From assembly GCF_002975205.1 (NCBI RefSeq), contig NZ_PCOC01000001.1, forward strand, positions 1-64,000: a stretch of DNA of 64,000 bases, read 5' to 3'. The notes beneath the pieces are model-generated. The model had not been told where the DNA came from. It did no database searches and saw nothing but the letters and a program-made list of their open reading frames with translations. Positions 61,839-64,000 of the stretch are shown one piece after another. The stretch comes from Ochrobactrum vermis. GTDB taxonomy: Bacteria; Pseudomonadota; Alphaproteobacteria; Rhizobiales; Rhizobiaceae. The stretch's first letter is position 1; each line of letters opens with the position of its first letter. Made by a program: the position numbers and the translations under genes.

Positions 61839-62054
61839 TTATTCGTAGTGTGCCGATCTGGCTCCAACTTCGCCGAGCTTGATGAAATGGCGCAGTTCGG
61901 CGCGCAGGTTTTCGGCCGAAGCCATATGGATCTGGCGCTGCGGCACAACATCGTTCTGCACGATCTGCGTGGATACGCCCGGCATGACAAACGCTCCTGC
62001 GGTCAGGACGAGGGCGGCGGCAATGCCGAGGCGTCTTTCGGTTCTGGCCTGCAT
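61839..62054 (-). CDS. Small exported protein of unknown function
   Basis: A 71-residue protein with a clear N-terminal signal or anchor: charged MQARTERR, hydrophobic LGIAAALVLTAGAFVMPGVS, then a polar part with ENLRAELRHFIKLGEVGARSAHYE. The ribosome site AAGGAG lies 6 bp before the ATG. It follows the 169-residue unknown gene on the same strand with a 100-bp gap and precedes a bidirectional terminator, so it is probably the last gene of that transcript. No family is recognised. Confidence 0.75.
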   Translation of the reverse strand: MQARTERRLGIAAALVLTAGAFVMPGVSTQIVQNDVVPQRQIHMASAENLRAELRHFIKLGEVGARSAHYE

Positions 62055-62154
62055 TTCTATCTCCTTGCGCCATGTGACGGCGACTTAAAATCTGGAATCA
62101 TCTTCATTCGCAAAACGCTGGGACTTTTCCGGTCGAGGACCGATCTGGGACCGA

Positions 62155-62664
62155 TCAGTGAAAAGTCGCGCGCTGCGTAAAATTCAAAGCGCTGTCGATG
62201 GCATGAATGGGTATTGGCAATAAAGTCTGGCCGAAATCAGCCAGCGTGTCGGCAAAATTGCGGGCTGCTCCTGCCACATCGTCGCAGCGACGATGGCAGG
62301 CAATGGCTGCAAGGCAGGTATCGAGCAGCAGCGCGTCCTGATTCTGGATGCCGGAAATCAGCCCCAGCGTCAGGCATTCCTCCCGGCAGACATGGTGCGA
62401 GTCGAAAGGGAAGGCGCGCAACTGGCAACTGGCGCAATGGCGCAGCACGCGGATGAAATGCGACAGCTCGCCCACCGCACGTTTTGCTTCCGACGGTCCG
62501 AGAACTTCCGAATAGAGGCCCCAGGTCATTTCCCACGGGATGATGGAGCCGGTCTCGAAACCCGCAGTCCAGCGGCGATAGCCTTCCAGCACCAGCTTCT
62601 CCGGCAGACGGTCGAAATAGCCTGCGGTATTGGCGCCGTTCAGTTGGGATATGCGCATATTCAT
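62155..62664 (-). CDS. Cysteine-rich protein of unknown function
   Basis: A 169-residue soluble protein, mostly helical. Cysteines are arranged as HCASCQLRAFPFDSHHVCREEC (about 84-105, seen as CxxC then HHxCxxxC) and CHRRC near 142, with several histidines nearby, which suggests a metal or iron-sulfur site. The start ATG 62664 has GGGAGG upstream and overlaps the stop of the 61-residue frame (ATGA). A longer reading from 62871 lacks support. A near-consensus Irr operator stands about 310 bp upstream. The family is not recognised. Confidence 0.75.
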   Translation of the reverse strand: MNMRISQLNGANTAGYFDRLPEKLVLEGYRRWTAGFETGSIIPWEMTWGLYSEVLGPSEAKRAVGELSHFIRVLRHCASCQLRAFPFDSHHVCREECLTLGLISGIQNQDALLLDTCLAAIACHRRCDDVAGAARNFADTLADFGQTLLPIPIHAIDSALNFTQRATFH

Positions 62665-62846
62665 GTCCGCCTCCCGAGGAAGTTGCGGAATGAGGACATG
62701 CGTGCAGATGCGGGGCCTGCGCCCTGCTTCTCCGCCGAGGGACGTTCGGTTTCCCCCCGCACATTGCAATATCCGGTCGGCAAGAGACCGAGCTGCCAAG
62801 GCAGGCCGTCGACATTTGCGGACCGGCATTCGCCGAGACCAATCAT
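62661..62846 (-). CDS. Small protein, probable leader gene of the Irr-linked cluster
   Basis: A 61-residue frame with two cysteines (GECRS and GYCNV) and a basic C-terminus (SSFRNFLGRRT). Two facts favour it being a gene: a perfect GGAGG ribosome site 4 bp before the ATG, and an ATGA overlap of its stop with the next gene's start. Its codons are GC-rich at the third position like those of the neighbours. No family is recognised. It could also be a short upstream frame whose translation controls the next gene. Confidence 0.55.
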   Translation of the reverse strand: MIGLGECRSANVDGLPWQLGLLPTGYCNVRGETERPSAEKQGAGPASARMSSFRNFLGRRT

Positions 62847-62972
62847 TGGTCCTCCAATCGAAAGGGTTCAAGGCCCAGACATCAAAGGTTGTGAATTTGC
62901 ACTAGGGATAGAAGCATGAAAAATCATCTGGAGTCAATTCCTCAACTTTAAAATCATATTAGATTTCAATCA

Positions 62973-62989
62973 TTTAGAATTATTCTAGA
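62973..62989 (-). promoter_or_regulatory. Irr-type iron control element (ICE box)
   Basis: TTTAGAATTATTCTAGA matches the Rhizobiales Irr consensus TTTAGAA-N3-TTCTAAA at 13 of 14 defined positions. It contains a perfect 13-nt palindrome. The only downstream genes in either direction that start near it are those of the minus-strand cluster (62846 leftward). Confidence 0.65.
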
Positions 62990-63024
62990 CTCTAATTGTC
63001 ATGTTTACAGCATTCAACGAAGAA

Positions 63025-63054
63025 CGCAACCGCTGTGGGGGAACAGCGGTTGCG
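63025..63054 (-). terminator. Hairpin, possible terminator of the YcnI-PCuAC gene
   Basis: Perfect 12-bp arms (CGCAACCGCTGT/ACAGCGGTTGCG) enclose a 6-nt loop. On the minus strand the hairpin is followed by TTCTTC, a weak T run. It lies about 145 bp after the stop of the gene ending at 63198. Confidence 0.5.
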
Positions 63055-63197
63055 GCAAACGGGCGCATAATGCGCGAAGGAGAGAGGACGCGGATCATTC
63101 GCCCTTTTGCTAAGGGATCGGTCTTCGCAATTGAACTTTCAGGCATTTCCCGAAACCGCACAGATAGCGCGCGGCTTGCCGGAAACGGCTGGTTCGC

Positions 63198-64000
63198 TTA
63201 GTGACCCGAGTGCTCTCCGTCCTTCTGGCCGCTTTTGGCTGTGACGGGGAAATCGATCGTGACCTTGCCGGCCTTTTCGAATTGCAGCGTTACCGGCACG
63301 GTCTCGCCTTCCTTGTAAGGTTTTTCCGGCTGGATGAACATGAGGTGATAGCCGCCCGACTTCAGCTCGACTTTTTCACCTGCCGGAATGTCCAGTCCGC
63401 CTTCGAGCTGGCGCATCTTCATCACGTCATCCTGCATCGTCATTTCGTGGATTTCGACGCGCTTGACGCCTTCGGTGGTGACGGAAACCAGCTTGTCGGC
63501 ATCCTTGCCGTCATTGGCGATGGTCAGGAAGCCGCCTGCGACCTTGGCACCGGGAACCATGGCGCGCACCGAAGGAGCCGTGATTTCCAGATCGCCAAGC
63601 TTTGTCGGCACTGCGGCCTGCATGGAGGCATGGTCCATCTGGCCCATCATCTTGTCGTGGCCCCCGTGCCCGTCGTCACCGGCTGCGGCCATCACGTGCA
63701 ACTGCGGCGCAGGGTGCTTCAGATCGTGCGGGTTCTGGCCGTCCTTTGCGATTTCCGTCCAGGCGACCGATGCGTCGCTTCCGCAAAGCTGGGTCACGGG
63801 GAAGGAAAGGGTTGTATCCTTGTCGAATTTGGCAAGCTGGCCGACAACGGTGAATTCGTCATAGAAATCGCCGGGCAGATTGCCGTCGGTGAAGCGGACT
63901 TCGCGGACGCCCGCGGTCACGTCCTTGCCGTGCACCTTGTAGCTCTGGGCATAGTCGCCCTTGACGGTTTCGATCTTCCAGCCCGCCTTGACCTGCGGCT
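63198..64000 (-). CDS. YcnI (DUF1775)-PCuAC fusion copper protein, 5' end outside the window
   Basis: A partial gene: the frame is open to the right edge, so the N-terminus and signal peptide are missing (267 codons visible). The N-terminal part is YcnI-like (KAGWKIETVKGDYAQSY, then LPGDFYDEFTVVGQL). A Met/His-rich linker (GDDGHGGHDKMMGQMDHASM) joins it to a PCuAC domain with the copper-binding pattern H(M)x10Mx21HxM: Met in KMRQLE, IHEMTM and YHLMF. Such periplasmic proteins deliver copper to cytochrome oxidase. A role in supplying CuA or CuB oxidases is inferred. Confidence 0.88.
   Translation of the reverse strand, partial: PQVKAGWKIETVKGDYAQSYKVHGKDVTAGVREVRFTDGNLPGDFYDEFTVVGQLAKFDKDTTLSFPVTQLCGSDASVAWTEIAKDGQNPHDLKHPAPQLHVMAAAGDDGHGGHDKMMGQMDHASMQAAVPTKLGDLEITAPSVRAMVPGAKVAGGFLTIANDGKDADKLVSVTTEGVKRVEIHEMTMQDDVMKMRQLEGGLDIPAGEKVELKSGGYHLMFIQPEKPYKEGETVPVTLQFEKAGKVTIDFPVTAKSGQKDGEHSGH

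Follow-up and report, generated by a model that had tools for sequence, protein, structure and literature searches.

A conserved leader hairpin over the Shine-Dalgarno sequence of iron genes in Hyphomicrobiales suggests an RNA-level layer of iron control in addition to Irr

Iron control in the Hyphomicrobiales is described as transcriptional, with Irr and RirA as the regulators. In animals, the 5' leaders of iron-metabolism mRNAs carry the iron-responsive element (IRE), a short hairpin with a fixed CAGUGN loop and a bulged C, which can block the start of translation. Leader stems that hold the Shine-Dalgarno (SD) sequence are found in SD-sequestering riboswitches and in RNA thermometers such as ROSE of rhizobia. 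Here, we analyze a small gene unit of Ochrobactrum vermis, located in a stretch of 64,000 nucleotides (nt) that we call the window (assembly GCF_002975205.1, contig NZ_PCOC01000001.1, positions 1 to 64,000), together with a conserved RNA hairpin that lies between the Irr box of this unit and its genes. The occurrence of the hairpin before iron-uptake and iron-storage genes in many members of the order suggests that iron control has a further layer, at the level of RNA.

The hairpin consists of two stems and a 7-nt loop. Its parts are listed below by window position, with the scores of a covariance model built from 31 sites (R2) and of its refined version (R3).

62838-62891, minus strand: conserved RNA leader element, covariance-model match of 70.9 bits (R2) and 56.3 bits (R3)
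62881-62888, minus strand: 5' strand of the outer stem P1, CCUUUGAU, by RNAalifold, covariation and folding
62851-62858, minus strand: 3' strand of P1, AUUGGAGG, which holds the SD motif GGAGG, by RNAalifold, covariation and folding
62874-62876, minus strand: 5' strand of the inner stem P2, GGG, by covariation
62864-62866, minus strand: 3' strand of P2, CCC, by covariation
62867-62873, minus strand: apical loop CCUUGAA, a sequence shared by 98 of 130 unique sites

The predicted pairing CCUUUGAU:AUUGGAGG covers the SD of the first reading frame of the unit, which encodes 61 residues and precedes the gene for a 169-residue protein, F169. In an alignment of 19 loci, a segment of some 45 nt, CCTTTGATGTCTGGGCCTTGAACCC-N-TTCGATTGGAGGACC, is nearly frozen directly 5' of the ATG of the 61-residue frame, and RNAalifold, applied to the 31 sites, yielded two stems, the outer one paired with the SD and the inner one a GGG:CCC helix with a 7-nt loop. 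TTGGAG is borne by 93 of 108 sites; in 65 of these 93, an ATG follows the GGAG at a distance of 6-7 nt, and the mean unpaired probability of the GGAG over all 93 is 0.25. The first open reading frame (ORF) behind the hairpin is in some cases the main gene itself (fbpA, F169) and in others a small ORF coupled to it, such as the 61-residue frame. A different conserved ORF of about 50 residues, in an arrangement resembling that of the 61-residue frame, stands between the element and the imelysin gene at four loci (L180, L181, L189, and L212), and leader ORFs thus recur behind the hairpin.

An early pattern search found the element in 30 of 397 genomes of the order, several of them without F169, and also before other genes. 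R2 has matches in 121 of the 397 genomes at an E-value of 0.05, and R3 places the element in 116 of them at 1e-3, in 52 of 142 genera and in one to four copies each; some of the R3 matches were newly found, and the gene survey below covers part of the matches. Among 289 genomes sampled across the class, an unspecified share of them from other orders, the element was matched at an E-value of 0.01 only in the window's own genome.

The downstream genes were surveyed with 100 further stretches taken after the R2 scan. Their ORFs were sorted with profile hidden Markov models built from clusters of these same ORFs, and the classes were named afterwards from matches of representatives to Pfam or NCBIfam. 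Two of the loci, L114 and L177, are one place, so that the 133 site records correspond to 132 places. F169 or an iron-type gene, of ten gene types, was found within the stretch downstream in 123 of the 133 records, and a gene type other than F169 or DUF2325 in 108; the remaining 10 records are weak matches (R2 E-value of 6e-4 or worse). The named classes comprise an extracellular solute-binding protein and an ATP-binding cassette (ABC) permease (fbpA/fbpB-like), imelysin, cupredoxin, the FTR1 permease, FeoB, bacterioferritin, and DUF2325. The iron specificity of the fbpA/fbpB-like transporter genes is presumed by resemblance, and the Bfd-like protein has a weak match to Fer2_BFD (E-value of 0.12). 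The most frequent arrangements are F169-imelysin (19), imelysin (17), fbpA (16), F169 alone (12), fbpA-F169-fbpB (12), bfd-bfr (11), fbpA-fbpB (11), cupredoxin-FTR1 (4), and feoB (2). The element is thus placed consistently before the start codons of functionally related genes, and its association with SD-adjacent start codons and iron genes is best read as that of a cis-regulatory structured RNA. At L196, L207, and L216, it lies near genes for proteins of about 400 residues (DUF2325 in L216), which may form another family linked to iron.

Covariation was assessed on a collection of 178 sites, of which 166 have the loop and 12 lack the standard one; removal of 36 sequence duplicates left 130 unique sites. 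Among the 12, L026, L175, L192, L216, and L250 are loop variants that stand before F169 or iron-type genes. When positions are counted from the loop, the pair -4/+10, just outside GGG:CCC and absent from the recruiting model, is formed in 109 of the 130 sites as compared with 70.4 after shuffling, and it shows six pair types (G-C, A-U, U-G, G-U, C-G, and U-A). A plain MAFFT alignment was then made of 102 of the 112 references, from which near-duplicates, the partial site L205, and the outlier L255 had been dropped. In this alignment, the 13 pairs of the structure are formed in 87.4% of cells, as against 28-57% when the partners are slid, and 10 of the 13 show double-sided changes. Cells with double changes number 77, a count reached by none of 500 shuffles; shuffled alignments give 24.7 and the slid controls no more than 39. 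Compensatory exchange is exemplified by GGGA-CCUUGAA-UCCC (L209) and GGAG-CCUUGAA-CUCC (L206). The use of G-U pairs on one strand favors an RNA structure over a DNA palindrome. Compensatory changes are therefore present on an alignment that was not fitted to the structure, with two measures that do not separate it from its controls (see below).

The same stretch might instead be a coding leader, whose short peptide (..ALNP[FVI]DWR.. or the mini-ORF ATG-NNN-GGG-CCT-TGA) would control translation by attenuation or coupling. Such readings are convincing in near relatives, in which the peptide is FDVWALNPFDWR and the following ATG often overlaps with its stop codon, but they are lost in distant ones: no consistent start codon was found in 75 loci, the ATG of the mini-ORF is present in only 49 of 108 sites, changes of spacing and stem shift the frame in distant sites, and the changes track base pairing rather than codons. 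We regard this explanation as extremely improbable. A pseudoknot between the CCUU of the loop and the SD was also considered and discarded, as it is not kept, by inspection, in several variants (L112, L114, L120, and L132). Complements of the loop in the flanks of 108 sites, compared with one shuffle each, number 35 vs. 22 for 5-mers, 9 vs. 3 for 6-mers, and 0 vs. 1 for 7-mers, a slight excess. The segment GGGCCTTGAACCC (window 62864-62876) is the reverse complement, at 12 of 13 positions, of GGGTTCAAGTCCC, which we take to be a tRNA T-arm-like sequence; this resemblance is probably due to chance.

Upstream of the hairpin, the window locus has the following transcription signals.

62973-62989, no strand assigned: Irr box of the iron control element (ICE) type, TTTAGAA-N3-TTCTAGA, a sequence match with a like box at related loci
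62932-62937, minus strand: -35-like TTGACT, a putative promoter element
62908-62913, minus strand: -10-like TTCTAT, 18 nt after TTGACT, a putative promoter element from sequence and alignment

The box, TTTAGAATTATTCTAGA, fits TTTAGAA-N3-TTCTAAA at 13 of 14 positions, with one mismatch, and is the sole match with at most three mismatches in the window, for a chance expectation of 0.76. The 5.4-Mb genome contains four copies of the 15-base pattern TTTAGAANNNTTCTA and one of the reversed control pattern, so that the evidence from this single genome is weak; the weight of the box comes from its conservation across related loci. A protein scan of genome contigs gave 45 loci that encode relatives of F169, in Brucella/Ochrobactrum, Falsochrobactrum, Phyllobacterium, Mesorhizobium, and their relatives. 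All 45 have an Irr-type box with zero to three mismatches, located 257-366 nt upstream of the point where the protein match begins, in most of them the start codon. In Mesorhizobium xinjiangense (L048), the box fits at 14 of 14 positions, and box, element, and frames for F169, imelysin, the Bfd-like protein, and bacterioferritin follow on the same strand within about 2.5 kb. The window genome encodes Irr itself, with 211 bits to the NCBIfam IrrA equivalog for a cut-off of 150.

Between box and gene, TTGAC is invariant in 19 aligned loci, and the upstream regions of near relatives align well. Transcription is expected to start near 62901; the TTGACT/TTCTAT pair was not listed by a consensus promoter scan. 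With this start, the center of the box would lie about 80 bp upstream, a position that would suit activation rather than repression.

Boxes and hairpins also go together elsewhere. Of the 108 sites, 106 could be searched for a box with at most two mismatches 40-200 nt upstream, the two others being too near a contig end. An Irr-type box was found at 53 of them, whereas 0.3 were expected from a Markov control, and the downstream control gave boxes at 3 of 105 sites. Among the Bfd-type sites counted, 3 of 11 have one. A first reading made from the letters of the window alone, hereafter the sequence-only reading, had located the box at the same positions with the same fit, had named its conservation before Rhizobiales orthologues as the check to make, and had proposed control by Irr. 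The location and fit were borne out, the box recurs at every one of the 45 related loci, and the putative Irr control is strongly supported by this conservation, by the enrichment at sister sites, and by the irr gene of the genome. Alternatively, transcriptional control might explain everything, the hairpin merely tuning basal translation without regulation. The boxes at half of the sites speak for such an account, but a loop nearly fixed across many genera, in an element placed mainly before iron genes, exceeds what basal tuning needs, and we consider it decidedly unlikely.

The window's own genome has two convincing copies of the element, the next match having an E-value of 0.5. The second copy (L169, G000:C2:1223025-1223078) has an Irr-type box with one mismatch 96 nt upstream and stands before a gene for a Bfd-like protein that overlaps the bacterioferritin gene, behind a gene with an antibiotic biosynthesis monooxygenase domain. 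In Brucella melitensis, the accessible part of one report describes how DNA affinity purification sequencing and electrophoretic mobility shift assays place Irr at the promoter of a gene for a 2Fe-2S binding protein, which neighbors an antibiotic biosynthesis monooxygenase gene and whose transcript is lower in an irr mutant (PMC10374146). As the neighbors of L169 match those of this published target, we infer that it is the same gene and is activated by Irr; a leader RNA is not mentioned in that part of the report (PMC10374146).

The strict box pattern occurs four times in the genome, at the window locus and at L136, L137, and L138, the last three of which have no RNA element. At L136 (G000:C2:943300-950000), the box lies ahead of what we take to be an efe-like operon, with genes for an FTR1-type permease, EfeO-like, EfeB-like, and imelysin-like proteins, the last assigned by Pfam. 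At L138 (G000:C1:2245500-2249500), it lies just upstream of a presumably mbfA-like gene, which would be a known kind of Irr target. The box of L137 (G000:C1:940600-944600), with one mismatch, lies at position 2039 of the locus, and no obvious target gene accompanies it.

We consider it probable that the window holds an iron unit under two controls, one by Irr and one at the RNA level, in which Irr would activate transcription in low iron and the hairpin would gate translation. From what was computed, namely box, hairpin, covariation, SD placement, and gene association, we infer activation, translational gating, an iron signal, and a trans factor. In low iron, Irr would bind the box and activate transcription. 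The leader of the mRNA would fold into the two-stem hairpin, whose outer stem, by pairing with the SD, would limit translation of the first ORF, and the ATGA overlap between the 61-residue frame and F169 would extend this limit to F169 by coupling. More generally, the hairpin would define a family of cis-regulatory RNAs of the Hyphomicrobiales before genes for Fe3+ ABC import, imelysin, FTR1, FeoB, Bfd-like protein and bacterioferritin, and F169. Across many genera the stems vary but the loop hardly changes, which suggests recognition of the loop by a protein, a small RNA, or the metal itself. The 7 nt might thus form the docking site at which a trans-acting protein or small RNA, depending on iron status, opens or locks the hairpin. 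Such a double lock, Irr for transcription and the SD-hiding hairpin for translation, would be the most economical account.

The near-invariant loop, the SD in the outer stem, and the iron-type genes downstream would also fit a direct sensor, a riboswitch in which iron, heme, or some other small molecule is bound by the RNA directly, with no protein involved. However, the hairpin is only about 44 nt long and the sequence of its internal loop is not conserved, whereas most ligand pockets are conserved in sequence, and we hold this explanation to be very unlikely. It is equally doubtful that the element represents a new class of small riboswitch, seen only in Hyphomicrobiales and sensing iron or heme beneath Irr; if true, it would be a bacterial counterpart of the IRE system that sets the translation of iron import and iron storage without a protein. 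The stem P1 contains many G-U and A-U pairs, and its energy is modest. It could alternatively act as a physical gate, in which a weak hairpin over the SD yields to temperature or to general RNA chaperones, for instance cold-shock proteins. In line with this, proteome changes of Pelagibacter under iron limitation are not explained by its transcriptome, according to the abstract of one study (PMC2864753). But a thermometer needs neither a fixed loop nor a placement mainly before iron genes, and no thermometer family of Rfam matches, so that we judge a physical gate to be unlikely.

A number of observations weigh against the two-level control that we favor. On the transcriptional side, half of the element sites are without a good Irr box, which indicates that Irr and hairpin are not strictly coupled and that their pairing is common but not obligatory. 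The consensus scan listed another promoter-like pair at 63007-62979, scoring 9/12, that overlaps the box, and a promoter-like site over an Irr box would suit repression. As for distribution, 281 of the 397 genomes of the order, including relatives in the window's own family, have no match at an E-value of 1e-3, and a site without an iron gene (G244, L248) passes R3 at 6.3e-4. As for structure, two of five measures fail to separate it from partners slid by +1 to +3 on the 102 sites, with 10 vs. 9 pairs with double changes and 32 vs. 29-34 pair types. RNAalifold alone proposes 8 of the 13 pairs on that alignment, 5 of them with double changes, the outer two pairs of P1 fail to form in 40 of 100 and in 44 of 101 sequences, and the first 31 sites gave a single double change, a value reached by 56 of 500 shuffles; kinship among the sequences inflates such shuffle tests. 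The folding of single sequences is not exceptional, with a z score of -0.38 for the window and a mean of -1.45 over 127 sites, mildly better than shuffles, and two of seven leaders (L048 and L131) fold otherwise when taken alone. Lastly, no trans-acting factor was found, the candidate tested being F169, by co-occurrence. Of 83 genomes with the element, 58 were found to encode F169 and 25 were not, and the protein was rejected as an RNA-binding trans factor. The element list used for this comparison was cut at an R2 E-value of 1e-3 and excluded G192, whose match has no iron gene, and the F169 list, in which at most nine candidates per genome were scored, could miss some.

The frames of the unit and the hairpin upstream of its box are as follows.

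62661-62846, minus strand: 61-residue leader ORF, with its ATG after the SD of the hairpin and its stop overlapping the F169 start (ATGA)
62155-62664, minus strand: F169, a helical protein of 169 residues, of an unnamed family in iron operons, from the ORF list and family searches
61839-62054, minus strand: exported small protein of 71 residues, from the ORF list, with a putative link to the system
63025-63054, minus strand: terminator-like hairpin of the upstream YcnI/PCuAC gene, from the consensus scan only

In all of the 45 loci with F169 relatives, an ORF starts 6-7 nt past the SD core, and in 27 of them it ends in the ATGA overlap; by tblastn, 30 of the 45 contain a sequence that matches the 61-residue frame. 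The 71-residue gene was detected in 26 loci, each of them from a near relative, and two others gave weak matches over part of its length. None of the 61-, 169-, and 71-residue proteins has an above-cut-off match in Pfam or NCBIfam, and the 846-base unit has no match among plasmid records. The three frames, with the coupling of the first two, had been described in the sequence-only reading as belonging to no recognized family, and both statements agree with the ORF analysis and the family searches. The perfect ribosome site that it noted before the 61-residue frame does exist, but the RNA element at 62838-62891 that contains it had been missed. A gene for a YcnI-domain (DUF1775) protein with a PCu(A)C copper-chaperone domain lies upstream on the same strand (window 63198-63998) and has relatives in 43 of the 45 loci; the hairpin at 63025-63054 may separate it from the Irr-box unit.

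F169 belongs to an unnamed helical family, apparently with no model in Pfam or NCBIfam, that is found in iron operons, in many loci between fbpA- and fbpB-like genes or before genes for imelysin and bacterioferritin. This operon context supports an iron role for the protein. The sequence-only reading had suggested an iron or heme role from its cysteines and histidines. The motifs are there as described, and H91-x-C93-x3-C97 is invariant among 34 aligned proteins with at least 50% identity to the window's F169, but C97 is the only cysteine conserved at 90% or more across 62 diverse members. The argument from richness in these residues is thus weak, because most of them vary in the wider family, whereas the iron role itself is backed by the context. 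The tie to iron operons gives this family a physiological setting.

Searches of Rfam 15 gave no family match at the element, either in the window (62600-63100, E-value of at most 10) or in 20 loci (E-value of at most 1), where matches lie elsewhere only. Similarly, no description of the element was found among the literature matches listed, seen as titles and beginnings of abstracts with few subscription papers covered, and the hairpin is apparently undescribed within the sources searched. A conserved leader RNA before so many kinds of iron genes raises the possibility of a translational layer of iron control in an order that includes nitrogen-fixing symbionts, plant associates, and animal-associated bacteria, and the element provides a list of testable mRNAs.

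The element resembles the animal IRE in outline only, as a short leader hairpin of fixed loop before iron genes; its loop is mostly CCUUGAA, its stems are different, and a bacterial SD lies within it, so that it would not be a member of that family. We know of no partner for it akin to the iron regulatory proteins. With ROSE and the SD-sequestering riboswitches, it shares an SD held in a leader stem, but it has no Rfam match, and its gene set pertains to iron and not to heat shock. In Pelagibacter, translation of the iron-binding protein SfuC has been proposed to depend on cold-shock proteins (PMC2864753), a likeness in that RNA-level control would act on a periplasmic iron-binding protein of an alphaproteobacterium; the abstract of that study names no RNA element (PMC2864753), and our class-wide sample matched the hairpin only in the window's genome. 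The closest described system is the Irr/ICE-box regulon of the Rhizobiales and Brucellaceae, with which the window locus shares the box sequence, the irr gene in the genome, iron genes at sister sites, and, for the second copy of the element, the neighbors of a reported Irr target (PMC10374146). It differs from this regulon, and from the boxes of L136, L137, and L138, in that its transcripts would also carry a hairpin that hides the SD.
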